64,000 bases of DNA from Actinoplanes teichomyceticus ATCC 31121. Its GTDB lineage: Bacteria; Actinomycetota; Actinomycetes; Mycobacteriales; Micromonosporaceae. Below, one piece after another: positions 10,933 through 60,606 of this stretch. The DNA is taken from NCBI RefSeq assembly GCF_003711105.1, contig NZ_CP023865.1:1400001-1464000 (forward strand). Reading direction: 5' to 3'. Under the pieces are notes generated by a model. It had not been told where the DNA came from, did no database searches, and worked only from the letters and a program-made list of their open reading frames with translations. Within the stretch, counting starts at the first letter, position 1. Each line of letters begins with the position of its first letter. The translations under genes and the position numbers were made by a program.

Positions 10933-10997
10933 TCGGTTACGGCCCAAGGCCGGGTTTCCGGCCGGATGGCCCGAAACCGTCCCGGTGCGTCCGATCC

Positions 10998-11026
10998 CGG
11001 CCCGGGCGTTGCCGACGCCCGGGCCG
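10998..11026. terminator. Bidirectional hairpin terminator
   Basis: A perfect 12-bp stem (CGGCCCGGGCGT with its complement) encloses a 5-base loop. It stands between the rightward PH-domain gene and the leftward toxin remnant and could serve both. Confidence 0.8.
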
Positions 11027-11045
11027 ACGGTGAGAGCGGGCAGCT

Positions 11046-11225
11046 GCGGTCAGACGCGAGCCGGTCACGGTGCTCCGCGGATCGGGCGGTGTAGAAGATC
11101 TCCAGTTCGGTGAGTTCACACATCGACAGCAGGCCCGCCCTGACGTAGTCACCCCAGGAGTCCTGAAGCGTGGCCTCCCGGGCGAGGCGCATGTATGCGC
11201 TCGTGTCGATCAGAAGAATGGCGGT
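11046..11225 (-). pseudogene. VapC-like PIN-domain toxin remnant
   Basis: The frame reads ILLIDTSAYMRL and then GLLSMCELTELEIFYTAR, the N-terminal half of a PIN-domain ribonuclease including its first catalytic Asp and an acidic helix. Two lesions are visible. The antitoxin ends CAATGA; in an intact pair that ATG would start the toxin, but here one extra A puts the toxin frame out of register, so no start codon remains. After HRDRL the homology stops, so the later catalytic acidic residues are missing. The protein would be inactive. The intact antitoxin lies directly upstream. Confidence 0.75.
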
Positions 11226-11459
11226 TCATTGTCGATAACTGCGCTTGTCGAGGAAATCGTCGAAATCGTCCGCGGCCCCCATCCCGGCGAGTCGCTCCAC
11301 GGCCGCCACGCGCTCATGGATGGCGACGACCTCGCGCAGTGCGGCATTGACGGTTTCTGCGGCGTCCGTCGTGCCCAGGATCTTGGCCGCCTCGATCAGC
11401 GCCCGGTCATCGATGCTGATCCGTGCGATCGGGGGATTCGCTTCCACGGTTGCCCCCAT
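11226..11459 (-). CDS. VapB-type antitoxin
   Basis: A 77-residue protein with an N-terminal ribbon-helix-helix pattern (ARISIDDRALIEAAKILGTTDAAE) and a helical C-terminus that would bind the PIN toxin (FDDFLDKRSYRQ). Antitoxins of this kind neutralise VapC and repress their own operon. GGGAGG stands about ten bases before the ATG. A 17-bp palindrome about 52 bp upstream is a likely operator. The partner toxin gene is broken, so this is an orphan antitoxin. Confidence 0.8.
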   Translation of the reverse strand: MGATVEANPPIARISIDDRALIEAAKILGTTDAAETVNAALREVVAIHERVAAVERLAGMGAADDFDDFLDKRSYRQ

Positions 11460-11510
11460 AAGCCGCGCCTCCCTTCAGGGTAGGGCAACCCGCCGGCAGG
11501 GGGTTGCTCA

Positions 11511-11527
11511 ACGACTGGACCAGTCGT
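11511..11527. promoter_or_regulatory. Palindrome, probable antitoxin operator
   Basis: ACGACTGG-A-CCAGTCGT is a perfect 8+8 palindrome around one base, upstream of the leftward antitoxin gene. VapB proteins normally bind such sites for autoregulation; the link here is inferred from position. Confidence 0.55.
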
Positions 11528-11658
11528 GCGCATTGATCGACTCAACCGGTCACCCACGCGGTTGCCCGGGAGGGGCCGCGGCCGGGGCGACACCGTCGCG
11601 GCGGGGCTCGGCCGCCCGGCGAACCCCGCCGGTCACGGTACGTAGAGCCGCCGGACGG

Positions 11659-11693
11659 CGTGCCCGGCCCGGCGGTTGGCCGGGCCGGGCACG
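11659..11693 (-). terminator. Hairpin terminator after the PHP-operon hypothetical gene
   Basis: A perfect 14-bp stem (CGTGCCCGGCCCGG and complement) with a 7-base loop begins three bases beyond the stop of the leftward gene. Confidence 0.85.
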
Positions 11694-11695
11694 CT

Positions 11696-12373
11696 TCAGT
11701 GGTTGGCGCAGCAGGGCGTGGGGTCGCGGCGCTCGAACGGGATCAGCCGGCCGCCCGCCGCAGGCGTCGTGACCAGGACCAGTTCGCCGCAACGGAACTG
11801 GGGGCGGACGAAGTCGCCGGTGTCGACGACCGTCGCCGGGTCGGCCGGGCCCCCGCCCAGCACCTCCACCCGGGCGATGGAGCTGCGCTGCAGGATCTCG
11901 CTCACGGTCAGCGCGCCGGTCAGCCGGCTGCTGCCGGGGAACAGGACGGCCCGGCCGGCCGGGCCGCCGGCCGCCGCCTCCGCGGCCGCCCGCAGCTCCG
12001 GGACGGTCTCGACGGGCGCCGCGGTGAGCAGGCTGATCGCGACGTGCGGGAACGGGACCGCGACCAGGTGAGTGCAGGCCAGCACCGGGGCCGGGACCAG
12101 CTGCTGGATCCAGTGGTCCGCCTCGGCCAGCGTCCGGTGCCCGAGGCTGACCCCGACGATCCGCGCATCCCCACCGGCGGGAGAGGCCGCCCCACCGGCA
12201 GCCGCGCCGCCGGCAGGAGGGACAGCGGCACCGGCGGAGAGGGCCGCCCCACCGGCAGGAGGGACAGCGGCACCGGCGGAGAGGGCCGCCGCACCGCCTG
12301 GAGGGATCGCCGTGCCGGGAGCGTCACCGGCGGAGCAGACGGCGACCCCGGCCGGCGCGCTCCCGCCGGTCAT
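11696..12373 (-). CDS. Hypothetical protein coupled to the PHP phosphoesterase
   Basis: A 225-residue protein not assigned to a family. Residues up to about 65 are Ala/Pro/Gly-rich with a 14-residue repeat. The rest is a mixed alpha/beta domain (DARIVGVSLGHRTLAEADHW onward) ending in a CC-containing tail (PTPCCANH). The ATG at 12373 overlaps the stop of the PHP gene (ATGA), so translation is coupled and a related function is likely. No signal peptide or membrane segment is evident. A strong hairpin ends the unit. Confidence 0.55.
   Translation of the reverse strand: MTGGSAPAGVAVCSAGDAPGTAIPPGGAAALSAGAAVPPAGGAALSAGAAVPPAGGAAAGGAASPAGGDARIVGVSLGHRTLAEADHWIQQLVPAPVLACTHLVAVPFPHVAISLLTAAPVETVPELRAAAEAAAGGPAGRAVLFPGSSRLTGALTVSEILQRSSIARVEVLGGGPADPATVVDTGDFVRPQFRCGELVLVTTPAAGGRLIPFERRDPTPCCANH
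12210..12293 (-). repeat. 42-bp tandem repeat in a coding region
   Basis: Two nearly identical 42-bp units (12210-12251 and from 12252) encode a repeated AALSAGAAVPPAGG peptide; a third, weaker copy of the peptide follows. Confidence 0.85.
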
Positions 12374-44569: not shown

Positions 44570-44643
44570 GGGGCGGTAGCTCAGTGGGTTAGAGCAGGGG
44601 ACTCATAATCCCTCGGTCGCGGGTTCGAGTCCCGCCCGCCCCA
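44570..44643 (+). tRNA. tRNA with CAT anticodon, probably tRNA-Met
   Basis: A 74-base cloverleaf. The acceptor GGGGCGG pairs with CCGCCCC, the anticodon loop CTCATAA gives CAT at 44604-44606, and the T-loop is TTCGAGT. CCA follows at 44644-44646. Elongator Met is favoured; an Ile tRNA with lysidine has the same DNA anticodon. An integrase gene lies just downstream, so its 3' end is the likely attachment site. Confidence 0.9.
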
Positions 44644-44716
44644 CCACGATCTTCCTGCGGCGACTCTACAACGGGCCGAAGCGCATTGGGAAGACCGTTG
44701 CAGTTCCCGTTGCAAT

Positions 44717-45889
44717 TTAGTCCCACAGTCGCCCTCCGATGCGGTCCGCAGCCACTCGGGAGACCTCCGGCGCGACGTGCGAGTACGTACCGAGCGTGAG
44801 GGAGATCTGCGAGTGGCCGAGGAGCTCCATGACCACGCGGGCAGGTACACCCTCGGCCAGTAGGAGGCTCGCCGAGGTGTGCCGGGCATCGTGAAGCCGC
44901 GCGTCGCGGACGCCAGCCGCGGCCAGCAGGTCCTTCCAGTCCTGCCAATCCCGCCGCGGGTCGAGCGGTCGACCGTTGACCTGAGCGAAGACCAGGCCGC
45001 GCAGCTGCTGCCCGCCGATGGTGGGTACCGCGTCATCCCACAGCTCTCCAGCAGTCTCTCGCTCGGCGTCCTGCATAGACCGGTGCTCCCGCAGCGCGTC
45101 GACGAGCTGTGCCGGTAGCGCTATCGTCCGCCGCCCTGCCCGAGACTTCGGCTCGACCAGCACGAGGCCGCGGCCTGCCAGGCGCTGCAACTGCCACCGC
45201 ACGCGCAACGTGCCAGCGTCAAGGTCGACGTAATCCCACATGAGGCCGAGCGCCTCCCCTTGCCGTAGACCGAGAGCGAGTGCGACGGACCAGCGAGCAG
45301 CGTTCCGACGGCCGCGAGCAACGTCCAGGATCGCCCGAGCGTCCTCGCCCGACAGCGGCTGCACCTCTTCGCGGCTCACGCTCGGCGCGTCGACAAGCGT
45401 GCACACGTTCCGCGCGATCCGCTCCCGCTGCATGGCGACCTTCAGCGCCCGGCTCAGGATGCGGTGCATCTGCAGGATGGTCGCCGGCGCGAGGCCCTTG
45501 CGTGAGCAGGCGGCGTAGAACCGCTCCAAGTGCTCGGGCTGCAGGCGGTCGAGCCGATGCTCACCAAGTCCCGGGATGAGGTGCGTGGTGACCTTGGAGT
45601 GGTAGCCCTGCAGCGTAGAGGGGCGCACCTTCTGCTCGGCGATGTTCTCCAGCCAGTACGTCAGCCACTCGGCGACCGTCGGGACCTTGCCGACCGTCAT
45701 GACGCTGCCCGCATCGCGCTTCTTCTCCAGCGCGACCACCTTTGCCGTGACGGCCTTCTCTGTCGCGGCCTGGACGTGGCGCCGGTCGGTCTTGCCGTTG
45801 TCCTTGACGCCCATCGTCACGTATCCGTGCCAGCGGCCATCTTTGCCCAGGAAGATCGAGCTGCGGCCGTTAGCCTTCCGTCCGCTCAT
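44717..45889 (-). CDS. Tyrosine-recombinase integrase
   Basis: A 390-residue phage-type integrase. An N-terminal arm-binding segment (IFLGKDGRWHGYVTMGVKD) is followed by a core-binding SAM-like domain (TVAEWLTYWLENIAEQKVRPSTLQGYHSKV, split for reference). The catalytic residues are seen in LGLRQGEALGL (Arg), HDARHTSAS (His-x2-Arg), LGHSQ (His/Trp position) and TYSHV (the Tyr nucleophile). The ATG overlaps the stop of the upstream HTH gene. It ends about 70 bp from the tRNA. Confidence 0.94.
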   Translation of the reverse strand: MSGRKANGRSSIFLGKDGRWHGYVTMGVKDNGKTDRRHVQAATEKAVTAKVVALEKKRDAGSVMTVGKVPTVAEWLTYWLENIAEQKVRPSTLQGYHSKVTTHLIPGLGEHRLDRLQPEHLERFYAACSRKGLAPATILQMHRILSRALKVAMQRERIARNVCTLVDAPSVSREEVQPLSGEDARAILDVARGRRNAARWSVALALGLRQGEALGLMWDYVDLDAGTLRVRWQLQRLAGRGLVLVEPKSRAGRRTIALPAQLVDALREHRSMQDAERETAGELWDDAVPTIGGQQLRGLVFAQVNGRPLDPRRDWQDWKDLLAAAGVRDARLHDARHTSASLLLAEGVPARVVMELLGHSQISLTLGTYSHVAPEVSRVAADRIGGRLWD

Positions 45890-46440
45890 CCCTGCCGCCC
45901 CTGGCGCGCGGGCGGCAGGTAGCCGCGCAGGCGAGCCTCTCTGATCCACGAGTGCACGGTGGCCGACTTGACTCCCCATTCGGCGGCGATGGCCGCGGCC
46001 GGACTAGGAACGGCCGGTGCCCACGCCTCGTAATGCTTGGCGACCAGCTGGGAGAACTGCTCCGCGCTCATGCCGGCTTCCCGGCGCAGCGGCGGCAAGT
46101 CTTTAAGGGCGGCGGCGAGGTCGCCTTCCCAGTAGCTCCGTGTCAGATTGTTGCTGTTCTCCATCCGTGCGACCGGGACCTTACGCAAGGTCTCGCCCTT
46201 GATCGCACTGGTGGCGTCTCCGAGGAGCAGCAGGCCGGTTAGCACCTTCCGCCCCGAGGGCGACTCCGAGAAGCGGGAGAAAACGGCGGCGTCGTCGAGC
46301 AGGCGCCCCCGGTGCCTTCCCGACCACTCTCCGCCGAAGAGTTCACCGAGGGCCTCCTCGATGTGCCTGATCGACAGCGTTCCCTCGGGGATTTTCGTGT
46401 GCGGATCGTAGTCGAGCCGTACTTTTCGGTCCTCAGCCAT
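45886..46440 (-). CDS. HTH protein upstream of the integrase
   Basis: A 184-residue protein of a kind often found next to integrases in actinobacterial elements. The last ~40 residues form a helix-turn-helix (AAAIAAEWGVKSATVHSWIREARLRGYLPPA, split for reference). The N-terminal part has LSIRHIEEALGELFGG and a helical middle. Start ATG 46440 lacks a clear Shine-Dalgarno; an in-frame ATG at 46536 would add 32 residues and lie within the operator region. Probably a regulator of integrase or excision. Confidence 0.6.
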   Translation of the reverse strand: MAEDRKVRLDYDPHTKIPEGTLSIRHIEEALGELFGGEWSGRHRGRLLDDAAVFSRFSESPSGRKVLTGLLLLGDATSAIKGETLRKVPVARMENSNNLTRSYWEGDLAAALKDLPPLRREAGMSAEQFSQLVAKHYEAWAPAVPSPAAAIAAEWGVKSATVHSWIREARLRGYLPPARQGRQG

Positions 46441-46490
46441 GGGTGAACGGTAGGTGTCTGCCGGTTCGTCAGTCAACCAGCTGAGACTGT

Positions 46491-46566
46491 CATGAGTCAG
46501 CAGATACTTGCGTGGATCGGCAGACTGTGTTGCCATGGTCGCGTCCAATGAATCTGCTGACTCATG
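46491..46566. promoter_or_regulatory. Divergent control region with 15-bp inverted repeat
   Basis: CATGAGTCAGCAGAT at 46491 and its exact complement at 46552 enclose 46 bases between the leftward HTH gene and the rightward excisionase-like gene. They are probable operator arms. Confidence 0.7.
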
Positions 46567-46575
46567 GGAGATGTC

Positions 46576-46770
46576 GTGTCCAGGTCATTGCTGCTGACTG
46601 TCGAAGAAGGCGCCAAGCAAGCGAGTATCAGCCGCGCGAAGATGTTTGCCCTGATCAAGGCGGGCGAGGTGAGGTCCATCAAGATCGGGCGCTCACGTCG
46701 GATTCCGGCCATCGCGCTTGAGGAGTACGTCAACCGCCTGCTGCAGGAGCAGAGCCGGGCGGCTGCCTGA
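46576..46770 (+). CDS. Excisionase-like MerR-type HTH protein
   Basis: A 64-residue protein made almost only of a winged helix of the AlpA/excisionase kind: LLTVEEGAKQASISRAKMFALIKAGEVRSIKIGRSRRIP (split for reference), then ALEEYVNRLL. Such proteins direct excision or activate early genes. The GTG at 46576 has GGGAG eight bases upstream; an in-frame ATG at 46564 is inside the inverted repeat. It opposes the integrase operon. Confidence 0.8.
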   Translation: MSRSLLLTVEEGAKQASISRAKMFALIKAGEVRSIKIGRSRRIPAIALEEYVNRLLQEQSRAAA

Positions 46771-46771
46771 G

Positions 46772-47032
46772 ATGGCCACCGACGACAACGCCCGCCCCGC
46801 GGCGAACGGGACGGGCGAGAAGCAGGCCGGGCAGCCTGAGTCGATCGTAACCGACGTGCGGGCTGCCGAGCGGTCTCGCCGATCCCGGCGCTGGGCCCGG
46901 CGCGAACTGGACGAGCTGCTGGACGTCCCCGAGCCGGAGATCCACGCGGTGGACTACTCCGGGATGGGCTTCGACCTCGGCGTATCCGAGCGCACCGTGG
47001 CGGGGCGCGCGCTGCGGGAGCGTGCTGCGTGA
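46772..47032 (+). CDS. Small hypothetical protein before the primase
   Basis: An 86-residue charged protein with an Arg-rich helix (RAAERSRRSRRWARRELDELLD) and a C-terminal part (GMGFDLGVSERTVAGRALRERAA). No family is recognised. It starts one base after the stop of the excisionase-like gene and overlaps the primase GTG, so the three form one operon. Confidence 0.65.
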   Translation: MATDDNARPAANGTGEKQAGQPESIVTDVRAAERSRRSRRWARRELDELLDVPEPEIHAVDYSGMGFDLGVSERTVAGRALRERAA

Positions 47033-49752
47033 CCGATCACCCATCCGTCGACCCCATCCGCGATGTGGTCCTGCCGAGGCTCGCCGCGGTCCGGAAGTCC
47101 GCCGGCGGCTACATGGCCCAGTGCCCCGCGCACGAGGACGGCACGGCGAGCCTCTCGGTGGCGGCCGGACGCGACCAGCCGGTGCTCCTGCACTGCTTCG
47201 CCGGATGCCACCCGGACGACATCCTCGCCGCGCTCGGGCTGACGGCCGCGGACGTCTGCGCGCCCCGGGAGAGCCAGCCCGTCGACACCTGGCTGCCGTG
47301 CGGGCACGTCAAGGTCGCCGAGTACCGGTATCGCGACCAGGACGGCGCGCTGGTGTTCGCCGTCGCCCGCTGCGACCGCAAGGGCATCGACTGCCAGGGG
47401 TTCCGGCAGTGGCGTCCGGACGAGACCAAGCGCAGCGGGAAGACCTGGACGCGGAAGCTTCCCGACGGCAGCCGGGTCGGTGAGGGCCTGCCGTACCGGC
47501 TGCCTGAGCTGCTTGCCGCCGACCGGTCGCACGCGGTGTGGGTCGTGGAGGGAGAAAAGGACGCTGACCGGCTGACGGCCATGGGTCTCGTCGCCACCTG
47601 CAACCCCGAGGGCGCAGGGAAGTGGACCGAGCAGCACGCCGCCTGGCTCGCCGACCGCATCGTCATCATCGTGGCCGACCGGGACCAGCCCGGCGTCGAC
47701 CACGCTCAGAAGGTCGCGCGGACCCTGCGAGGGGTTGCCCGGTCGGTGGAGATCGTGCAGTCGCGCACCGCCGGCAAGGGCGCCGACATCAGCGACCACC
47801 TCGACGCCGGCCACGGCCTGGGCGACGTCGTGCCGTTCGAGCCGTCCAGCGGGCATGTGGAGCCGCCCGCGCCCGCCGCCGCGTCGTCCGAAGTTGCGGC
47901 CGGCGGGTGGGATGACCCGTTGCCGCTGGGCTGGCAGACCCGCCTTCCCGCCTTCCCGCTCGACGCGCTGCCCGGGCTGGTTGGCCGGTATGCCGCCGCG
48001 CTGTCGGTCGAGACGCAGACGCCGCCGGACCTGGCCGGCGCGGTCGTGCTCGGCACCCTGGCCGCGTGCATCGGCGGCCGGGTGCGCGTGCTGATCCGCC
48101 GCGGCTGGGCGGAGCCGACGAACACCTACACCGTGCCGGTGCTCGCTCCGGGTTCCCGCAAGTCCGCCGTCGTGGCGGCCTGCGAGGCGCCACTCGACAA
48201 CGCGGAGAAGATCCTGCTCGAAGAGATGGCCGAGCCGATCCGGAACGCCGCCATCGAGCGTGACATCCGCGAGCGGTACGCCGACCAGCTCAAGACGAAG
48301 GCCGGCAAGAGCCCGGACCCGATTGCGATCATGGAGGCCCAGGAAGCGGCCCGGGTCGCCGCGGAGATCGAGGTGCCCGCCTGGCCACGGCTGCTCACCG
48401 ACGACGCCACGCCGGAGCAGCTGGTCAAGCTGATGGCCGACCAGGGCGGCCGGATCGCCGCGATCACCGCCGAGGCGGGCGTCTTCGACAACTTCGCCGG
48501 CCGGTACACCGCGCGGATCAACCTGGAGCCGCTCCTGAAGGCGCACGCCGGGGACTCGATCAGGGTGGACCGCAGGTTCCGCGATCCCGAGCGCGTCGAC
48601 CGGCCCGCCTTGACGATGATCGCCACCATTCAGCCGTACGCCCTGCGGGACATGGTGAGCCGGCCGGAATTCGGCGGCCGGGGCCTGCTCGCTCGGGTGC
48701 TCTGGTGCCTGCCGGCGGACGTGGTCGGCTACCGGGATGAGAACGCCCCGCCGGTGCCGGAGCAGCTGAACGCGGCGTACCGGGCGTTCGTTGAGGATCT
48801 GGCCCTCACGATGGCCCGGCGAGACAGCGAGGTGCTGCTGTCGCTGAGCGAGCAGGCGTACAAGGTGCTCATCGAGTACCTGCGCCAGGTCGAGACCATG
48901 CTGCGCCCGGACGGTCCGCTCGGCGCCTCACGGCTCATCAAGGACTGGGGGTCGAAGCTGGTCGGCGCGGTTGCCCGGATCTCGGGCGCGCTGCACACCG
49001 CCGGCGTCGACGGCGCCCTGGATCAGCCGATCAGCGAGGAGACGATGAGCGCCGCGGTCCGGCTCGGCGAGTACTTCCGGGCGCACGCCATGGCCGCGCT
49101 CAGCCCAGCCGAGGACAAGCGGGTCGACGCCGGTCGCAAGGTGCTCGACGTGGCGGTCGCCAAGACGATGCACAGCTTCACCATGCGGGAACTGATGCGC
49201 CGCGTCCCCCGGGCGCTACAGAACGCCGAGGAACTGGCCAAGATTCTGGACTACCTCTCGGAGCTGGGCTGGACCCGCAAGGCGGGCAAGGGCTGGGAGC
49301 TCCACCCGCGCGCGGAGGACATGCTCCGAAGTGCTGACAGCGCTGACAGTGCTGACGACAGGGATGTTTTCCCAGGCCAGAGCGATTCCGCATCTGTCAG
49401 CAATGCTGCTGACACTGCTGACACCTCGGTCGGACCGGCGGAGGGCGTCAGCACTGTCAGCACCGGTGCTGACAGTCGGTTGGTGGGGTTCGGAGGTGCT
49501 CTGAGCAGCACGAACGCGCCGAGCGTCAGCACTGTCAGCAGTGTCAGCACTGTTGTCGCCCCTGTCGCCCCGGCGGGCGACAGCAGGGGCGACAACCTGT
49601 CGCTCTCCTCCACCAGCGGAAACACGGGATCTGTCGCCCCTGTCGCCCCTGTCGCCCCGATCGACTGGCCCGCTGACGACGACACCTGCCCCGACTGCGG
49701 ATGGGGCTACGAGACCGTGGCGCATCACCGCACCTGCGAGGTGGCGCCGTGA
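47029..49752 (+). CDS. CHC2-Toprim-DUF3987 primase/helicase-type protein
   Basis: A 907-residue replication protein of the element. A zinc ribbon of CHC2 type is formed by Cys32, His35, Cys56 and Cys60. A Toprim domain follows (WVVEGEKDADRL near 175; IIVADRDQPG near 216). From about residue 300 a DUF3987 domain begins, with PVLAPGSRKSAVV as the Walker-A-like loop and RFRDPERVDRPALTMIATIQP. The final ~140 residues are low-complexity Ser/Val/Ala/Asp, coinciding with dense DNA repeats, and end in CPDCGWGYETVAHHRTC, a zinc motif. The GTG overlaps the upstream stop. Confidence 0.85.
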   Translation: MTDHPSVDPIRDVVLPRLAAVRKSAGGYMAQCPAHEDGTASLSVAAGRDQPVLLHCFAGCHPDDILAALGLTAADVCAPRESQPVDTWLPCGHVKVAEYRYRDQDGALVFAVARCDRKGIDCQGFRQWRPDETKRSGKTWTRKLPDGSRVGEGLPYRLPELLAADRSHAVWVVEGEKDADRLTAMGLVATCNPEGAGKWTEQHAAWLADRIVIIVADRDQPGVDHAQKVARTLRGVARSVEIVQSRTAGKGADISDHLDAGHGLGDVVPFEPSSGHVEPPAPAAASSEVAAGGWDDPLPLGWQTRLPAFPLDALPGLVGRYAAALSVETQTPPDLAGAVVLGTLAACIGGRVRVLIRRGWAEPTNTYTVPVLAPGSRKSAVVAACEAPLDNAEKILLEEMAEPIRNAAIERDIRERYADQLKTKAGKSPDPIAIMEAQEAARVAAEIEVPAWPRLLTDDATPEQLVKLMADQGGRIAAITAEAGVFDNFAGRYTARINLEPLLKAHAGDSIRVDRRFRDPERVDRPALTMIATIQPYALRDMVSRPEFGGRGLLARVLWCLPADVVGYRDENAPPVPEQLNAAYRAFVEDLALTMARRDSEVLLSLSEQAYKVLIEYLRQVETMLRPDGPLGASRLIKDWGSKLVGAVARISGALHTAGVDGALDQPISEETMSAAVRLGEYFRAHAMAALSPAEDKRVDAGRKVLDVAVAKTMHSFTMRELMRRVPRALQNAEELAKILDYLSELGWTRKAGKGWELHPRAEDMLRSADSADSADDRDVFPGQSDSASVSNAADTADTSVGPAEGVSTVSTGADSRLVGFGGALSSTNAPSVSTVSSVSTVVAPVAPAGDSRGDNLSLSSTSGNTGSVAPVAPVAPIDWPADDDTCPDCGWGYETVAHHRTCEVAP
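49333..49548. repeat. Heptamer array GCTGACA/TGTCAGC in the primase 3' end
   Basis: In 216 bases GCTGACA occurs at 49333, 49342, 49408, 49417 and 49468. Its complement TGTCAGC occurs at 49395, 49455, 49533 and 49542. One-base variants lie at 49351, 49446 and 49524. Pairs tend to be nine bases apart. Confidence 0.9.
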
Positions 49753-50318
49753 GTGAACCGCGTCCACCGCGTCCCACCGCGTCCCAACCCCGTCCCGGAC
49801 GTGGTTGTCCGACCGCGTCCACCGCGTCCCCCTCTATAGGGGACGCGGTCGCGGACGTGGTTTCGGGACGCGGTCAGGAAGAGAACCCCGTCCCGGACGC
49901 GGTCGGCCCGGACGCCCGCCCCCGAGGAGGAGTCGAGGAGCACGACTGGGAGGCCCGGCTGCAGGCCGCCGTCGCAGAGACCCTGCGCAAGCGGGAGGAG
50001 CAGCGGGCGACCCGGCAGGAGTTCGCCGAGCGGCGCCGGCACGGGCTCGCCGCACGACACCAGCAGAAGCTCGCCCGCAGCAGCCCCCGGGGAAGCCGTG
50101 GGACACAGCGCGGCCGAGGAGCAGCAGGAGGAGACATGCCCCAACCAACCCGCACGATCACCCTCGACGTCAGCGCGCTCAGCGCGGTGGACCTGAAGAA
50201 CCTCGCGCACGTCGCCGGGCGGGCCGCCGGCTCGACCGCCATCGGCACGTCAGCGGTCGCCGCGCTCGGCCAGCTCGCACGCGACGCCGCCCGGCTCGCC
50301 CGGGAGGTGACGGCATGA
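49749..50318 (+). CDS. Hypothetical protein after the primase, coded through a repeat array
   Basis: A 189-residue protein. The first ~55 residues are low complexity (Pro/Arg/Thr) and are encoded by the CCGCGTCC array. Then come a charged coiled-coil stretch (AVAETLRKREEQRATRQEFAERRRH) and a C-terminal 60-residue domain (TRTITLDVSALSAVDLKNLAHVAGRAAG). That domain has its own ATG at 50136 with GGAGGAG just upstream, so it may be made alone as a second product. GTG start overlaps the primase stop. Confidence 0.5.
   Translation: MSEPRPPRPTASQPRPGRGCPTASTASPSIGDAVADVVSGRGQEENPVPDAVGPDARPRGGVEEHDWEARLQAAVAETLRKREEQRATRQEFAERRRHGLAARHQQKLARSSPRGSRGTQRGRGAAGGDMPQPTRTITLDVSALSAVDLKNLAHVAGRAAGSTAIGTSAVAALGQLARDAARLAREVTA
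49758..49902. repeat. CCGCGTCC octamer array with hairpin
   Basis: CCGCGTCC occurs at 49758, 49767, 49777, 49813 and 49822; its complement GGACGCGG at 49841, 49866 and 49895. An 11-bp perfect inverted repeat (49821-49831 with 49839-49849) encloses CTCTATA, the most AT-rich spot in the area. Confidence 0.9.
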
Positions 50319-50659
50319 GCAGCGTGCGGCAGTGCGCCATCTGCGGCACCGACGAGGCGGAGACCTGGACCCCCGTGGTCCTGCTGGAGACGCTCAGGAT
50401 GCGGTGCACGGTGCTCAACGACGCGGACGTACCGCCCATCCCCGCCGGGCTCTACTGGCTCTGCCCGCCGTGCGAGAGCTGGCGGCCCGAGGCGCGCACG
50501 GCGCCACTCCCCGCGCGCGTCATGGCCACGGTCAACGCCACGGCCGCCCTCATCGAGAAGCCGGACACCCGGCACCTGTTCCACACCGAACAGGTCGGCG
50601 CGTACCGGCACTTCGCCCGGCAGCTCCAGGCCATCAACTACCAGAAGGGCAAGCCGTGA
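50315..50659 (+). CDS. Small protein with paired CxxC motifs
   Basis: A 114-residue protein. CAICGTDEAETW near the start and CPPCESW near residue 50 could bind one zinc. The rest is helical (ARVMATVNATAALIEKP; YRHFARQLQAINYQ). No family recognised. It overlaps the genes before and after by four bases. Confidence 0.6.
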   Translation: MSSVRQCAICGTDEAETWTPVVLLETLRMRCTVLNDADVPPIPAGLYWLCPPCESWRPEARTAPLPARVMATVNATAALIEKPDTRHLFHTEQVGAYRHFARQLQAINYQKGKP

Positions 50660-51039
50660 AGGCACTGATCGCAACCCATCGGACTCAGGGCAACGGCACA
50701 CGCGACTTCACCTTCTGCGTGCCCGGCGAGCTGGTCTACCTCGGCGCCGTCTGCGACCGGGACGCACGGGATCCGGACAGCCCCGGAGCCTGCGGCTGTG
50801 CTCGCGCGTTCACCGGACTCAACAGCGGCAAGGCCACGACCACCGCCGAGGTCGGCGAGGTGCCGCTGTCGACGGAGGACTACCGCGAGGCCGTGCGGTC
50901 GAGCCTGGAGCGCGCCGGGTGGACGTCGCTCGGTGTCGACCCCGAGGAGATCGTGGCCGAGCTGATCGAGATCGCCGCGCAGCATCCGGTCGGCACGGTG
51001 CTCGGACGGCGAGTCGACGACGTCATGGTCCGCGACTGA
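50656..51039 (+). CDS. Hypothetical protein with conserved cysteines
   Basis: A 127-residue protein starting KALIATHRTQGNGTRDFTFCVPGELVYLG, with an ACGCARAFTG segment and a helical end (DPEEIVAELIEIAAQHPVGTVLG). The cysteines (CVPGE, VCDRD, CGC) suggest a small zinc fold. Function unknown. It is the last of the coupled genes before a 158-bp gap that contains a TATGGGG/CCCCATA inverted repeat (51095-51114). Confidence 0.6.
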   Translation: MKALIATHRTQGNGTRDFTFCVPGELVYLGAVCDRDARDPDSPGACGCARAFTGLNSGKATTTAEVGEVPLSTEDYREAVRSSLERAGWTSLGVDPEEIVAELIEIAAQHPVGTVLGRRVDDVMVRD

Positions 51040-51197
51040 CCAACTCAAGGGTCACTATCGGTAACTGAACACGGAGAGTGGTGGACCGGGCGGGTATGGG
51101 GGGTAATCCCCATATCCCCTGGTCAAGCGGTACCGCCGGGAGGTGGATCCCTGGCCGCGACCCCTGAATCAAGTCGACCTATCAACGGAGAGTAACT

Positions 51198-51565
51198 GTG
51201 AGTGAGAAGCCTTCCCGCCCGTCGGGCTCCGTGAGCCAGGCCGGCGTCTCTGGGATTCGATCACCGGCGACTACGACCTTGACGAGCACGAGCTGGCGCT
51301 GCTGCGCGAGGCCGTCCGCACCGTCGACCTTCTCGAAGAGCTGGAGGAGCGCGTCCGGGCCGACGGCGCGGTGATCTCCTCGCCGCAGGGGCTCAAGGCG
51401 CACCCGGCCGCGGTCGAGGCCCGCCAGCAGCGCATCGCCTTGGCGCGCCTCATGGTGGCGTTGCGGATGCCCGCGGGTGACGAGGGCGACCAGGCGCAGG
51501 GCCGCCGGCCGCAGCGGCGCACCGGCGTCAGAGGCTTCTACGGCATTCGAGGCGGTGTCGCGTGA
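51198..51565 (+). pseudogene. Terminase-small-subunit-like gene with a frameshift
   Basis: A GTG with a good ribosome-binding site (GGAGAGTAACT) opens a frame starting SEKPSRPSG that runs into nonsense. From about 51245 a different frame reads LWDSITGDYDLDEHELALLREAVRTVDLLEELEERV (split for reference) to a TGA at 51565, a conserved helical pattern seen in phage small-terminase-like proteins. One extra C near 51246 would join the two into a ~122-residue protein. The cause could be a real mutation, a sequence error or recoding. Confidence 0.6.
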
Positions 51566-54725: not shown

Positions 54726-57700
54726 GTGGCTCGAACCGTGACCGTCAAGATCGGTGCGGACACCGCTGACTTCCGGGGCAAGCTGCGCGAGGCCGGCCGG
54801 GCGGTCCGGGACTTCCGCGGCGAGATGGAACGGGCGGCCCGCGGCGGGCACCTGGACTCGATCGCCGACAGCGCGGCGCGTATGGGGGTGGCGGGCGTCG
54901 GCGCGTTCGGCGTCGTGATCGCCAGCTCGGCGAAGTTCCAGAAAGCCATGTCGGGCGTCTCGGCCGCCACGCACGCTTCCGCCCGCGACATGCAGATGTT
55001 GCGCGATGCGGCGTTGGAGGCCGGCAAGGCGACGAGCTACAGCGCCACCGATGCCGCGGCCGCGGAGACCGAGCTGGCCAAGGCCGGTGTCTCCGTCCGC
55101 GACATCATCAACGGCGGCCTCAGCGGCGCGCTGTCGTTGGCGGCGGCCGGTCAGATGGACGTCGCCGAGGCGGCCGAGACCGCGGCCAGCGCGCTCACCC
55201 AGTTCAAACTCAAGGGCTCCGACGTCCCCCACATCGCGGATCTGCTGGCGGCCGGCGCCGGCAAGGCTCAGGGGTCGGTGCACGACCTGGGCGCCGCGCT
55301 GAACCAAGCCGGGTTGGTCAGCGCGCAGATGGGCCTGTCCGTCGAGGACACTACCGGCACACTGGCTGCATTCGCCTCGGCCGGCCTGATGGGCTCGGAT
55401 GCGGGAACCAGCCTCAAGACCGCCATGCTCATGCTGGCCAACCCGACCGACAAGGCCCGCTCGCTGATGGAAGAGCTGGGCATCCAGGTCTACGACGCGT
55501 CCGGGAAGTTCGTCGGCGTTACGAAGCTGGCCGGTTCGCTGAAGTCGCAGCTCGGCACCCTCACCCAGGAGCAGCGCAACAGCGCGCTGGCCACCATCTT
55601 CGGATCGGACGCGATCCGGGCTGCATCGGTGCTGTACGAGCAGGGTGCGTCCGGCATCCAGACCTGGATCGACAAGGTCGACGACCAGGGCTATGCGGCG
55701 GACACCGCAGCCCGTCAGACCGACAACCTGATCGGCGACATCGAGCGCCTCAAGGGCTCGCTGGAGACCATGGCGATCGAGAGCGGGTCCGGGGCGAACG
55801 GTGGCCTGCGGATGCTCGCCCAGGGCGCCAACGCGGTCGTCGACAGATTCGCCGAGCTGCCGCCCGCGGTCGGCGAGACCATCACGATCATGGCCGGCCT
55901 GACCGGCGCGCTCATGCTCGGCGGCGCCGGCTGGGTGAAGATGCGCCGCTCGAACGCCGAGGCGCTGGCGGAGTTGCGCGCCACCGGTCCCGCCGGGGCG
56001 AAGGCCGCGGCCGGCCTGCAGCGGGCTGCCGGCGCGGCTGGGAAGGCCGCCGGCGCGTTCGCCCTCTTGCAGATCGCGGACATGGCCATCGCGGCGAACA
56101 TGTCGGACCTGAATCCGCAGGTCGATGCGCTGACGGTCGGCCTGGGCCAGTACGCGCAGACGGGCAAGGCCACCGGCGAGATGGCCCGGCTGCTGGGCGG
56201 CGACCTCGGCAAGCTGGACGGCCAGTTCCAGCTGCTCGCCAACACCGACAGCGCTCGCGCGAAGTGGGCTGTCGGACTCCAGGGGGGCCTGGAGTCCGTC
56301 TCGTCGGCGCTGGCGAAATCCGACTCCAGCCTCAGCACCACCCGGGAACGCGTAACCGCGCTGGACCAGTCGCTGGCGCAAATGGTGCAGGGTGGCCAGA
56401 CGGACGCGGCGAAGCGCGCCTTCGCCGAACTAGCCCACCAGCTCGCCGTCAACGGCGTTTCGATGGACGAGTTCAAGAAGCAGTTCCCGCAGTACGCGGC
56501 GGCGCTCCAGGTCTCCAACTCGGCCACCGCCGACGCGACCACGAAGACCGGCGAGCTGGGCGGCGCACTGCAGTCCGGCGCCGGTGACCAGAAGGAGTAC
56601 GCGACCGCCACCGACGCGTCCGCCGCGGCGGTGCGCGGCCAGCGGGACGCCCTCGACGACCTCTCCAAGCAGCTGCGCGCCGAAGCGGATCCCGTTTTCG
56701 GGCTGCTCGAAGCGCAGGACAAGCTGGCGGCGGCTCAGGACGCGGTCGCGAAGGCGACGAAGGAGCACGGGAAAAAGAGCTCCGAGGCGAAGCAGGCCAC
56801 CCGCGACCTTGCTGTGGCGGCGCTCGACCTGCAGGGCAAGGTGGGAGCGCTCGGCGGGACCTTCAAGGGGCAGATGACCCCGGAGCTGCGGGCGACGCTG
56901 CGGGCGGCCGGGCTGAGCGAGAAGCAGATCAAGAACCTTGCCGGCCAGTTCCGTGAGGCGAAGAAGGACGGCGACAAGTTCTCGAAGAATTACCGCGCCG
57001 AGGTCCAGCTGACCGGGTACAGCGCCGCTGCCGGCCAGATGGACAAGTTGTTGGTCTACCAGCACGCGCTGCGTAAGGGCATCCCGGTCAGCGCCGCGCA
57101 GTCGGCGTACGACAAGAACTCTCGCAAGGAGTTCCACGCTGGCGGCTGGACGGGCCCGGGCGGCAAGTACGAGCCGGCCGGCGTGGTGCACGCCGACGAG
57201 TTCGTGATCCGCAAGGAGGCCCGGCAGAAGATCGAGGCCGCGAATCCGGGCCTGCTCGACGAGATGAACGCGACCGGCCAGGTCCGCGGGTACGCGACCG
57301 GCGGCCTGGTTCTGCCGTTCCCGGCCAGCGTGGCCGGCGCCCGGATCCCGTCGCGCGCCGAGGTGGCGAAGGCGGTCGGCCCGGTGTTCGACCGGGACTG
57401 GCCGTCCAGCCCGGGAGCCCAGCGCGGTGACTCCGGGGTCTGGCACAAGATCGTCCAGCTCATCAAGTCGACCGGCCCGTTGTCCGGCGAGTTTGGGAAC
57501 GCGTTCCGTCCCGGCGACCCGAAGTGGCACGGATCCGGGCGCGCGGTCGACTGGATGGGCTACGAGCAGGACGCCCTCGCGTCGTTCCTCGCCAGCAAGA
57601 GGCCGCTGGAGCTGATCCACCGCACCAAGAGCAGGGACTACGCGTACTCCCGCGGCGTCAACAAGGGCAGCTTCGACGCCGCGTTGATGGAGGCGCACCG

Positions 57701-58943
57701 CAACCACATCCACGTCGCGATGGCCAACGGGGGCGTGATCAACGAGCACGTCATCGGCTACGGCAAGTCGGGCGCGACGTACGAGTTCGGCGAGGCCGGC
57801 CCGGAGCGGGTGACCCCGCTGCGCGGCTACGCCTCCGGCGGCCTGGTCAACGTGGCCCCGTCGACCACCACGCCGACCGGCTTCCGACCGACGGGCACCC
57901 GCCTGGACTACCTGGAGTCGCTTCTGGCGGCCCGGAGCGCGGTGCAGGCGCTCTCAGCGGCGTTGAAGGAGAACGGCCGCACCTGGTCAACGGCGACGGC
58001 GAAGGGGCGCGACAATCGCAGTGCCCTGATCGCCGGGGTCCGGGCGGCCCAGCAGGCGGCCGAGGCGAAGTACGCCGAGACCGGGTCGGTGAAGGCCGCG
58101 AACCGGGTCTACGACGACTACATCAAGCAGCTCGACCGGGCGCTCAAGGCGATGGGGGTCAACGCCAAGCAGCGCCGGGCGTTGATCAAGACGTACAGCG
58201 AGAAGCCGAAGTACGACCTGCCGGAGACGGCGCCGCGGGCCCCGTCGAACAGCTCGGGCCGGGTCCGGTCGATCACCGACCAGATCGCCGCGGAGGAGGC
58301 CATCTCCAATGCCAAGACCGCGTTCGCCTGGACGAAGCCGACCTTCTCGACGAAGACGAAGACCGGCCAGGCCGAGCTGACCCAGCTGTTCGCCTACCTG
58401 TCGGCGGCCGAGCAGGCGGCGCAGAGCCTGTACGCCGAGGGCGGCAACGCCAAGGCTGCGACCAACCTCTACAACTCGTACCTGGCCCAGCTCCGGACGA
58501 TCCTGGGCCGGTCGGGGATGACCCGGGCGCAGATCGACTCGCTGCTCAAGACGTACGGCCGGATCACGTTGTCGCGCAACGCGCTGGGCGGTGTCTACGA
58601 GCGGGCCGGTGGTGGGCTGCGGGAGGCGCAGATCGCGGCCGGCGGCCCGACCCGGTACGCCTGGGCGGAGGAGTCTACCGGCGGCGAGGCGTTCATCCCG
58701 CGGCTCGGTGACCGCTCCCGGTCGCTGGCGATCTGGCAGCACGTCGGCGAGCGCTGGCTGAACCAGCCCGTCTGGCGTCCCGGCTCGGCCGGCGGCGGGC
58801 AGGCGGCGGCCCGCAACATCACGGTGCAGGCAACCATCCCGATCACTCTCGGAGCCGAGACGATCACCCGCCAGGTGCGGATCGAGGTTGACACCGTGCT
58901 CGGCGAGGTCGCGGCCGCCACCGTCTACCAGACCGCCGGATAG
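54726..58943 (+). CDS. Phage tail tape-measure protein (TP901 type)
   Basis: A 1405-residue protein. The N-terminal ~400 residues match the TP901 tape-measure core (IGADTADFRGKLREAGRAV; FQKAMSGVSAATHAS; LDTTGTLAAFASAGLMGSDAG-like; AIESGSGANGGLRMLAQ). A hydrophobic stretch follows near 380-400. Residues ~840-1040 contain a peptidase-like segment (HGSGRAVDWM and RNHIHVAM) of the M15/L,D-peptidase kind that would clear peptidoglycan. The end has GEAFIPRLGD, usual for these proteins. AAGGAG precedes the GTG. Tape-measure proteins set tail length and help DNA entry. Confidence 0.92.
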   Translation: MARTVTVKIGADTADFRGKLREAGRAVRDFRGEMERAARGGHLDSIADSAARMGVAGVGAFGVVIASSAKFQKAMSGVSAATHASARDMQMLRDAALEAGKATSYSATDAAAAETELAKAGVSVRDIINGGLSGALSLAAAGQMDVAEAAETAASALTQFKLKGSDVPHIADLLAAGAGKAQGSVHDLGAALNQAGLVSAQMGLSVEDTTGTLAAFASAGLMGSDAGTSLKTAMLMLANPTDKARSLMEELGIQVYDASGKFVGVTKLAGSLKSQLGTLTQEQRNSALATIFGSDAIRAASVLYEQGASGIQTWIDKVDDQGYAADTAARQTDNLIGDIERLKGSLETMAIESGSGANGGLRMLAQGANAVVDRFAELPPAVGETITIMAGLTGALMLGGAGWVKMRRSNAEALAELRATGPAGAKAAAGLQRAAGAAGKAAGAFALLQIADMAIAANMSDLNPQVDALTVGLGQYAQTGKATGEMARLLGGDLGKLDGQFQLLANTDSARAKWAVGLQGGLESVSSALAKSDSSLSTTRERVTALDQSLAQMVQGGQTDAAKRAFAELAHQLAVNGVSMDEFKKQFPQYAAALQVSNSATADATTKTGELGGALQSGAGDQKEYATATDASAAAVRGQRDALDDLSKQLRAEADPVFGLLEAQDKLAAAQDAVAKATKEHGKKSSEAKQATRDLAVAALDLQGKVGALGGTFKGQMTPELRATLRAAGLSEKQIKNLAGQFREAKKDGDKFSKNYRAEVQLTGYSAAAGQMDKLLVYQHALRKGIPVSAAQSAYDKNSRKEFHAGGWTGPGGKYEPAGVVHADEFVIRKEARQKIEAANPGLLDEMNATGQVRGYATGGLVLPFPASVAGARIPSRAEVAKAVGPVFDRDWPSSPGAQRGDSGVWHKIVQLIKSTGPLSGEFGNAFRPGDPKWHGSGRAVDWMGYEQDALASFLASKRPLELIHRTKSRDYAYSRGVNKGSFDAALMEAHRNHIHVAMANGGVINEHVIGYGKSGATYEFGEAGPERVTPLRGYASGGLVNVAPSTTTPTGFRPTGTRLDYLESLLAARSAVQALSAALKENGRTWSTATAKGRDNRSALIAGVRAAQQAAEAKYAETGSVKAANRVYDDYIKQLDRALKAMGVNAKQRRALIKTYSEKPKYDLPETAPRAPSNSSGRVRSITDQIAAEEAISNAKTAFAWTKPTFSTKTKTGQAELTQLFAYLSAAEQAAQSLYAEGGNAKAATNLYNSYLAQLRTILGRSGMTRAQIDSLLKTYGRITLSRNALGGVYERAGGGLREAQIAAGGPTRYAWAEESTGGEAFIPRLGDRSRSLAIWQHVGERWLNQPVWRPGSAGGGQAAARNITVQATIPITLGAETITRQVRIEVDTVLGEVAAATVYQTAG

Positions 58944-58951
58944 GAGGGGTG

Positions 58952-58977
58952 GAAGCTTCCCGGGTCCGGGAAGCTTC
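58952..58977 (+). terminator. Terminator after the tape-measure gene
   Basis: A 12-bp perfect stem (GAAGCTTCCCGG and complement) with two central bases lies eight bases after the stop. Confidence 0.85.
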
Positions 58978-59424
58978 TGCGGCCGGGTGGAACTCGGCGT
59001 TCGCGGCAGTGGGAGGGGTCGCGCTGTGCATCTGTCCTCTGCATCGGCGAGGGCGGCAGACCGGCGGCATCAGGCCGGCGCGGCGCGACCCCGCGACCCT
59101 GCAGCTCAGTCCAGGGTCGCGCCCGGTCGCGTTGCCGCGACCCGCGACCCTTCCGCGACCTCTCCCGCGACGGCTTGATGCCGCCCTGATCAGCGATGTC
59201 ACCGATGACGGTGACAACAGCGGTAGCGGCTCGCCGAGGTCTCCAGCGGCGTCCTGAGCGCCGACCTGGGCCGCTGCAGGACCGCCCCGCTACCGCTGTT
59301 CGACGGCGTTTCCGCAGGCCGCCCCAGTAGCGGCTGACCTTACGGTGCCGCTACTGGCCGACCGCCCCGCTATCGCCGGTAGCCCGGCCGGCCGGACGCC
59401 GCCGTGGCGCCCGCGGCGGATGGT
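58978..59424. other. Non-coding region with two families of short inverted repeats
   Basis: No gene is supported. The left part (59085-59165) repeats CGCGACC in both orientations. The right part repeats TAGCGG/CCGCTA: AACAGCGGTAGCGG (59216) pairs with its exact complement at 59287, and CCAGTAGCGGC (59324) with its complement at 59347. It lies between the rightward tape-measure gene and leftward genes. Confidence 0.7.
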
Positions 59425-60253: not shown

Positions 60254-60587
60254 CCGTCCTCCCCAGGTAGCGGGGTGGCGGCCGGGTGTGGAAAAACGGG
60301 ATCCCGGCCGCCACGCTGGAGGGGCGGCGACGAGACCGGTGCATTTCCCACGATCTCGATGGATGGCCGCGCCGCCGCCCAGGGACGGCGACGGGCTCAA
60401 CCGCTCACGACGCTGGACGTGCCCGCCGCCGCCGATCCGATCGTGCTGCCCGTGTCGGCGCTTGTGAGTCATGCCGCTGTTGACACCAGGTGACAACTCC
60501 GGTCGTCCGGTTGAGCGACGAGGGGCAGCGCAGGAAGGCTGAGCAGCCCTACGGTGGGGAGAGCAGCGCTTCGGGGGGTGTCGACGG
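60254..60587. other. Divergent promoter region of the XRE regulator
   Basis: The spacer separates a leftward operon from a rightward XRE-family gene. TGTTGACA occurs at 60479 and again at 60589 and 60599. No other feature is recognised. Confidence 0.6.
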
Positions 60588-60606
60588 GTGTTGACAGGTG
60601 TTGACA
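60577..60606. promoter_or_regulatory. Three 10-bp tandem repeats over the regulator start
   Basis: GGTGTCGACG, GGTGTTGACA and GGTGTTGACA follow each other from 60577. The spacing is one helical turn. The GTG start codon (60588) is inside the second unit, suggesting autoregulation. Confidence 0.65.

Follow-up and report, generated by a model that had tools for sequence, protein, structure and literature searches.

What does a dense cluster of short repeats inside the 3' end of a primase gene do for the mobile element that carries it, and which protein reads it? The question is raised by a 64,000-nucleotide stretch of Actinoplanes teichomyceticus ATCC 31121 (contig NZ_CP023865.1, forward-strand positions 1,400,001 to 1,464,000; hereafter the window), in which an integrated element encodes a primase-helicase of the DUF3987 family. 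A first-pass annotation had described two adjacent iteron-like arrays in and after this gene and had taken them together as the replication origin of the element, with the primase or a neighbour as the binder. From comparison of the locus with its relatives, we consider it highly probable that the first array is the origin of the element, that it is bound by the element's own DUF3987 primase-helicase, and that the sites beside it are the leftover half of another array. The features concerned are the following.

47029..49752, + strand: DUF3987 primase-helicase gene, with Pfam, PHROG, structure and NCBIfam matches
49096..49320, + strand: residues 690-764, C-terminal putative winged-helix DNA-binding region; the phrog_2373 phage helicase profile aligns through residue 760
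49207..49209, + strand: codon of residue 727 (Pro in the window), the protein column covarying best with base 2 of the repeat unit
49332..49549, both strands: complete 12-site array, unit TGCTGAC/GTCAGCA, the proposed origin
49555..49657, both strands: seven GTCGCCC/GGGCGAC sites (49555<, 49564<, 49575>, 49587>, 49633<, 49642<, 49651<; arrowheads give orientation)
49664..49752, + strand: C-terminal CxxC..H..C tail, common to GGCGACA-type and some ADS/VST-type homologues (e.g. P0008, P0009, P0013 and P0038)

The array and its counterparts in related loci

The first array lies in the last 429 coding bases ahead of the primase stop codon. Its sites are at 49332>, 49341>, 49350>, 49396<, 49407> and 49416> in the left half and at 49447<, 49456<, 49467>, 49525<, 49534< and 49543< in the right half, with 9-bp steps frequent on both strands. 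Nine copies of GCTGACA/TGTCAGC and 11 of TGCTGAC/GTCAGCA are exact, and 12 sites are obtained with at most one mismatch, in agreement with the twelve heptamers in both orientations first reported. The codon-preserving shuffle proposed at that time was carried out with two null models of 5000 sequences each, and no sequence reached 11 exact copies, the maximum being 5 with codon usage resampled and 8 with codons permuted. Together with the stop-codon placement described below, this bears out the earlier view that the low complexity of the protein is imposed by the DNA. Genome-wide, the two-unit pattern TGTCAGCACTGTCAGC with up to two mismatches occurs at 10 places, six of them being the first array and the remaining four isolated single places with two mismatches each. 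Among 19 control segments of 20 kb, both-strand clusters of GC-rich heptamers with up to 11 copies also occur; the control clusters listed have at most 4 minor-strand copies each, compared with 5 in the first array. The element contains no second cluster of at least six TGCTGAC/GTCAGCA units, and single GTCAGCA copies outside the array number six in the element's part of the window, three of them within 46496-46598. Each orientation of each unit stays in one reading frame in the window.

The array is mirror-symmetric, a property absent from the earlier description. The inner six and the outer six sites are each exactly symmetric. The gap on the right is longer by 12 bp, which shifts the right outer triplet by that amount and places the two centres 6 bp apart. 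All 12 sites pair mirror-wise about the two centres, an outcome seen in 0 of 2000 trials in each of two null models.

Relatives were found by alignment-based search; the window primase as a single query found nothing in the named genomes. At the level of the genus, 22 of 67 genomes have a relative, at that of the family 113 of 350 (E≤0.001) and at that of the class 28 of 394 (E≤1e-30); each count includes the genome of the window itself. The comparison takes in the 80 listed of 563 relatives and the 120 listed of 1243 protein hits; matches ending before residue 690-700, duplicates of one gene core and regions too short or N-filled were left out before counting. In the comparison that the first-pass annotation had proposed, DUF3987 relatives carry arrays at the same place with different units: just after the same C-terminal region, GTTGACA, GGTGACA or GGCGACA sites follow a common map. 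The GTTGACA-type map reads >> < >>> in the left half and <<< > << in the right, with spacings such as 8, 56, 12, 10, 10, (30 or 19), 10, 10, 12, 56 and 8 bp, and the GGGCGAC-type array has 14 sites with spacings of 9, 9, 46, 12, 11, 9, (31), 9, 11, 12, 46, 9 and 9 bp.

Among the 160 distinct loci examined, 78 have at least six exact both-strand copies. Dyad symmetry reaches p≤0.005 against random positions and orientations in 40 of these 78, and in 27 of the 31 loci with at least 10 copies; the four that fall short of this level are the window itself, L081 and L188, which have two right halves in tandem, and L222, in which an extra right half accompanies the array. The centre gap of the 28 loci with at least 10 copies and eight paired sites is 17-20 bp in nine, 27-31 bp in 18 and 38 bp in one, and these classes step by about one helical turn. 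Right-half-only arrays, whether single, tandem or extra, are seen in L078, L081, L188, L191, L193 and L222, as if a half were a functional module, and the half-only arrays of L078, L191 and L193 suggest that one half may suffice. In L202, a GTTGACA left half lies about 270 bp from inverted copies, as if the array had been interrupted by an insertion.

Across 31 loci the primase stop codon falls inside the array in 24, after it in five and before it in two. Because the stop can lie before, inside or after the array, selection appears to act on the DNA. In the Streptomyces loci with arrays above shuffles, the sites are mostly or wholly past the stop, and in GTTGACA loci units 8 bp apart are read in two frames. 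When the left-half map of the window was slid over the maps of 28 other loci, 42 sites coincided without any shift and 51, the highest number, at a shift of +4, compared with a mean of 9.6 for all shifts beyond 2, the peak included. The array thus keeps a fixed distance from the end of the DNA-binding region, independently of the stop codon. At the protein level, an exact tandem tripeptide occurs in the last 150 residues of 63 of the 120 listed homologues and in residues -450 to -300 of nine. Many of these tails come in two flavours (GDT/VAP, ADS/VST, GDT/VTP, QNS/ANI), read from the tails of all but about 10 of the 120, and the two flavours probably represent a single 9-bp unit read in the forward and in the reverse-complement direction, by extension also in proteins considered at the peptide level.

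Repeats also follow the DUF3987 gene in some plasmid and phage records. A circular Streptomyces plasmid of 18.45 kb has eight TGACAGA-type sites directly after its DUF3987 gene; it also carries genes for a prim-pol, a helix-turn-helix (HTH) protein, an integrase and FtsK, its replication genes (prim-pol and DUF3987) being those of an incomplete gene table, and it may be an excised integrative element. In the Streptococcus phage Javan191 (L265), five GACAAAA copies cluster behind the DUF3987 gene, and repeats are visible by eye only in the gut phage NatCom_43819 (L264) and a Tsukamurella plasmid (L266). In both L264 and L265, TGACAAA-like repeats come after the DUF3987 helicase gene and close to an AT-rich stretch, for the most part as judged by eye.

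The predicted reader and the proposed leftover half array

The primase-helicase consists of a zinc-finger-like and TOPRIM-like N-terminus, the DUF3987 part (residues 330-692), the C-terminal region (residues 690-764), for which a winged-helix fold is predicted, and the array-encoded tail. A TOPRIM-type primase domain is present in fusion with a predicted helicase, as indicated by zinc finger and TOPRIM matches and by phrog_2373 ("DNA helicase") for the DUF3987 part. In Pfam (E≤0.001) DUF3987 is the only match, with no DUF927 or Primase_Cterm/D5 match there or in NCBIfam (E≤0.01), and no P4-family primase/helicase profile is among the Pfam or NCBIfam matches.

Covariation was examined in 36 loci (18 with GTTGACA, 14 with GGTGACA and 4 with GCTGACA), using columns with at most three gaps. 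Residue 727 carries the most information on base 2 of the unit of all 463 columns (1.29 bits, the next column having 0.92). With GTTGACA the residue is Ser in ten loci, Ile in six, Ala in one and Tyr in one; with GGTGACA it is His in six, Gln in five and Arg in three; and with GCTGACA it is Ala in three and Pro in one, the Pro being that of the window. Ala is found with GTTGACA as well as with GCTGACA, and these two units therefore cannot be separated by the residue alone. The motif around it, HRRVxRR, would be the recognition helix of the winged helix. In a tree of the helicase core, from which L202 was left out, the unit labels change at least 12 times, and all five independent GTT/GGT pairs on supported branches are concordant with the residue-727 class. 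Neighbouring rows with different units include L185 (Ser)/L184 (Gln), whose grouping is supported, as well as L210 (Ile)/L222 (Arg) and L076 (Tyr)/L061, L192 (Arg), whose groupings are not fully supported. The cores of L059 (GTTGACA) and of L062 and L067 (GCTGACA) are nearly identical, and their DNA-binding region differs. We conclude that the primase's own C-terminal domain is the likely reader of the array; of the two binders considered in the first-pass annotation, the primase rather than a neighbour is favoured by position, symmetry and the covariation of residue 727, all of them drawn from sequence comparison.

Repeat units between the two arrays had been noted earlier, and the seven GTCGCCC/GGGCGAC sites are indeed present; their half-array map had gone undescribed. 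Seven or more sites turned up in 9 of 5000 sequences with codon usage resampled and in none of 5000 with codons permuted. The spacings (9, 11, 12, 46, 9 and 9 bp) and orientations (<<>><<<) match exactly the right half found in the GGGCGAC-type array of L055 and L056. When aligned, this part is 76-79% identical to L055, L057 and L082 and 71% identical to L058, whereas the part to its left is 60-64% identical to L055, L057 and L082; with the GCTGACA-type locus L062 the order is reversed, with 63% for the leftover part and 70% for the left part. The primase core of the window groups with L055, L056, L057, L058 and L082 in the tree, and the core of L082 (Micromonospora fulviviridis) is that of L056, which comes from a genome of the same family as the window. 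The middle CTGTCGCCC units read best as the leftover half of another array type, and the primase gene looks like a chimera of one whole origin and half of an older one. On the simplest reading, recombination would have replaced the old array as far as its middle by a new one, which may or may not have come with its DNA-binding region, and the TGTCGCC sites would be the remaining right half of the previous origin, presumably no longer read by the window enzyme. A peptide-pattern search of the 120 listed homologues found no two-unit hybrid tails.

Proposed function, rival explanations and known systems

For a helicase-primase that appears to read a mirror-symmetric array in which its own gene ends, the simplest role is that of an initiator at its origin. 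Several copies of the enzyme would bind 49332-49549 through the C-terminal winged-helix-like domain, one site per subunit. As the 12-14 sites fall into two mirror halves of six or seven, the likeliest complex would be two facing helicase rings, loaded for two-way unwinding and priming. Binding, ring assembly and origin activity are all predictions from sequence. The earlier proposal that the array is the replication origin of the element gains from position, symmetry, covariation and the small circular plasmid as far as the first array is concerned, and is not supported in its two-array form.

Alternatively, the array could be an operator through which the primase or another element protein controls downstream transcription or copy number, the origin lying elsewhere. 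In relatives resembling actinomycete integrative and conjugative elements (AICEs), the array does lie between the primase and the xis/int genes, many relatives have no detectable array here, so that their origin must be elsewhere, and three GTCAGCA singles at 46496-46598 are near the start of the excisionase-like gene. However, an ordinary operator would not comprise 12-14 sites arranged as two mirror halves with phased gaps, the array follows the end of the DNA-binding region in its position, and the predicted reader is a helicase-primase, which together make an operator unlikely. A transfer or packaging site has a precedent in Streptomyces, where TraB/FtsK proteins read 8-bp arrays, and the relatives include an FtsK-bearing AICE-like plasmid as well as other 7-8-bp arrays (CGCGACC) in these elements. 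Since the unit of the primase-adjacent array tracks primase residue 727, this function is very doubtful for the first array; the second array (CCGCGTCC) may be such a site.

We regard it as equally improbable that the inverted units act in mRNA as hairpins of a terminator or attenuator. The small 3+3 arrays are near-perfect inverted repeats, but half-only and tandem half arrays exist (L078, L081, L188, L191, L193), 46500-51500 has no Rfam match at gathering scores, and the unit covaries with a protein residue. That the repeats merely follow from selection for a low-complexity Ala/Asp/Ser/Val linker tail is barely credible: each unit orientation keeps one frame in the window, as this would predict, but the codon-preserving nulls gave 0/5000, in 26 of 31 loci the array runs past the stop or begins beyond it, and GTTGACA units 8 bp apart are read in two frames.

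Several results weigh against the assignment of the array as an origin read by the primase. About one centre and with exact sites only, the dyad of the window falls short of significance (6 of 11 sites paired, p=0.095), and p=0.0625 for the pair test is the floor for five pairs. Arrays are not universal: a tolerant detector, which misses small 3+3 arrays with varied units, finds one in 74 of 182 loci, compared with 19 of 182 when the body of the same genes, farther upstream, served as a control. A further 31 loci (L232-L262; one from a search of another family and 30, part of the matches listed, from one other order) include seven duplicates of known loci, and among the 24 new ones, from the one other order, only L261 has at least six copies; in the five of them inspected, the next open reading frame (ORF) starts within about 80 bp of the stop, as judged by eye. 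Five plasmid or phage records have a detector array after the gene in two (L263, L265), repeats by eye only in two (L264, L266) and none in one (L267). No AT-rich unwinding element was found in 28 actinobacterial arrays, where average AT content is at most 40% in one 20-bp bin against a background of about 30%. Solved structures match only the zinc-finger/TOPRIM part of the primase, none covering the C-terminal region, and the DNA-binding fold and the DUF3987 helicase activity are both putative rather than established.

Several known replication systems are similar in placement. Like the window, Rep/ori of Staphylococcus aureus pathogenicity islands (SaPI) and Cch2 with the putative ori of staphylococcal cassette chromosome mec (SCCmec) combine an integrative-element helicase gene with short repeats at or directly after the gene end; the eLife 2020 study (PMC7581432) describes self-loading replication helicases whose C-terminal domain binds repeats just downstream of their own gene, with SaPI Rep appearing to bind as two hexamers. 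According to the same study, these helicases are of the DUF927 or Primase_Cterm/D5 type, in contrast to DUF3987 in the window, and SCCmec has three 5-nucleotide iterons, in contrast to the 12-14 sites here in a strict mirror map that is wholly or partly coding in 29 of 31 loci (PMC7581432). The 6+6 or 7+7 mirror map is compatible with binding of two hexamers as in SaPI. In P4, crr is a second cis region with the iterons of ori, whereas the window has three single GTCAGCA copies at 46496-46598, lacks a second cluster of at least six of the array's units in the element, and shows no P4-family profile match; elsewhere in the genome nothing closely matches the two-unit pattern. P4 alpha otherwise resembles the window in joining a TOPRIM primase, a helicase and a C-terminal winged helix (PMC4234260) to repeats at an origin, the winged helix and the origin being putative in the window. 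The same source places the origin of plasmid pRN1 just 3' of a primase-helicase gene with a C-terminal winged helix, again resembling the window; unlike the window, pRN1 has a stem-loop without iterons, an archaeo-eukaryotic primase and a superfamily 3 helicase (PMC4234260). The IncU plasmid RA3 has its oriV at the 3' end of repB (PMC9455977), a likeness in origin placement, and its initiator probably differs from that of the window. Iteron origins in general have several direct repeats, to which the initiator of the element binds, and an AT-rich unwinding element next to them; the window has the repeats and a putative initiator suggested by covariation, and no AT-rich element was found in the 28 actinobacterial loci. 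By analogy, the window origin may work like those of SaPI and P4; by the profiles tested, its primase is in neither helicase family.

In Kazlauskas et al. 2018 (PMC5862659), DUF3987 is predicted to be a helicase family of mobile elements. The main text of an AICE survey (PMC3218068) contains neither the term DUF3987 nor the term iteron. No description of DUF3987 origins was found in searches of open-access papers; few of these name DUF3987, and those that also have "origin of replication" do not use "iteron".

The element, other repeat clusters and implications

The window belongs to a single-contig genome of 8.29 Mb. Further features of the element are given below.

44601..44645, + strand: attL core, the 3' part of tRNA-Met, a 45-bp repeat
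44717..45979, - strand: tyrosine integrase beside the tRNA (PF00589, 3.9e-22; phrog_1, 6.8e-67)
46576..46770, + strand: small HTH protein, excisionase-like (phrog_1877, 1e-4; phrog_25665 excisionase, 0.0067)
49749..50318, + strand: next ORF, whose GTG start overlaps the primase stop, without family match
49758..49902, both strands: second array within the next ORF, eight exact CCGCGTCC/GGACGCGG plus variants

A second copy of the 45-bp att repeat lies at genome C1:1464785-1464829 (window coordinate 64785), just past the window end. The two repeats at tRNA-Met support an integrated element of about 20.2 kb, in keeping with the integrative element first suspected, and a tRNA att site, an integrase, an excisionase-like gene and a replication gene are features shared with AICEs. 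A 1405-residue tape-measure protein (54726-58943; phrog_1533, 2.8e-90) is the only virion-type gene product among the nine ORFs scanned in the element, which may be a satellite, a decayed prophage or an element of another kind.

The second array of at least eight octamers was also correctly recognized, with eight exact CCGCGTCC copies at 49758-49902; its count of 8 was reached by 0 of 5000 codon-usage resampled and 10 of 5000 codon-permuted sequences. It is weaker than the first array, since GC-rich both-strand clusters of equal raw count occur in the 19 control segments of 20 kb, and its symmetry is only partial. No counterpart was found 300-1400 nucleotides downstream of 30 other large-type loci, where the only clusters of at least five copies are in L222 (the unit of its primase-adjacent array repeated) and L011 (a 5-copy GCTAGCA). 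As it is not conserved there, the second array was rejected as part of the origin, and the idea that two adjacent arrays form one origin is not supported.

Other repeats were observed in the window and its relatives. The GTCAGCA singles at 46496, 46555 and 46592 lie within 46492-46598, and the first two fall within a perfect inverted repeat of 14 bp, ATGAGTCAGCAGAT, whose arms are separated by 46 bp. The repeat flanks the start of a leftward ORF (45886-46548) ahead of the excisionase-like gene and is perhaps an operator using the unit of the origin, or chance. From the end of the tape-measure gene, a CGCGACC both-strand array (58907-59160) has nine exact copies, five on the plus and four on the minus strand, and is followed at 59222-59384 by CGCTACC-type sites (two exact and four near). 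The order CCGCGAC then CGCTACC recurs in L036 ahead of an apparent integrase start; there, 10958-12131 holds GCTAGCA, CCGCTAG, CCGCGAC and CGCTACC both-strand arrays within 1.2 kb, besides an origin-like GTTGACA array. Nine same-genus loci have CGCGACC/CCGCGAC arrays about 2.7 kb ahead of the primase stop. GTTGACA, the unit of arrays in relatives, occurs at 60479, 60590 and 60600 and in nearly matching form at 60489 and 60579; downstream of these sites (60479-60606) is what appears to be an HTH regulator gene.

Proteins of the DUF3987 (YfjI) family are encoded by integrative elements, phages and plasmids alike. Whether their primase-helicases define a large undescribed class of origins, with a coding-compatible 6+6 or 7+7 mirror platform that offers one site to each subunit of two facing rings, a specificity set largely by one residue, and an exchange of gene ends with their origins that has been caught in the window as a complete new origin next to exactly one half of the old, we judge to be evenly balanced. 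If the origin assignment is right, the origins of DUF3987 elements would be readable from sequence, the initiator and the residue by which it recognizes its sites would be known, and the geometry of the sites would offer a testable model for the placement of two helicase rings on DNA. The switches of unit between near-identical cores (L059 with GTTGACA; L062 and L067 with GCTGACA), together with the leftover half array, would make the evolution of such origins directly testable.

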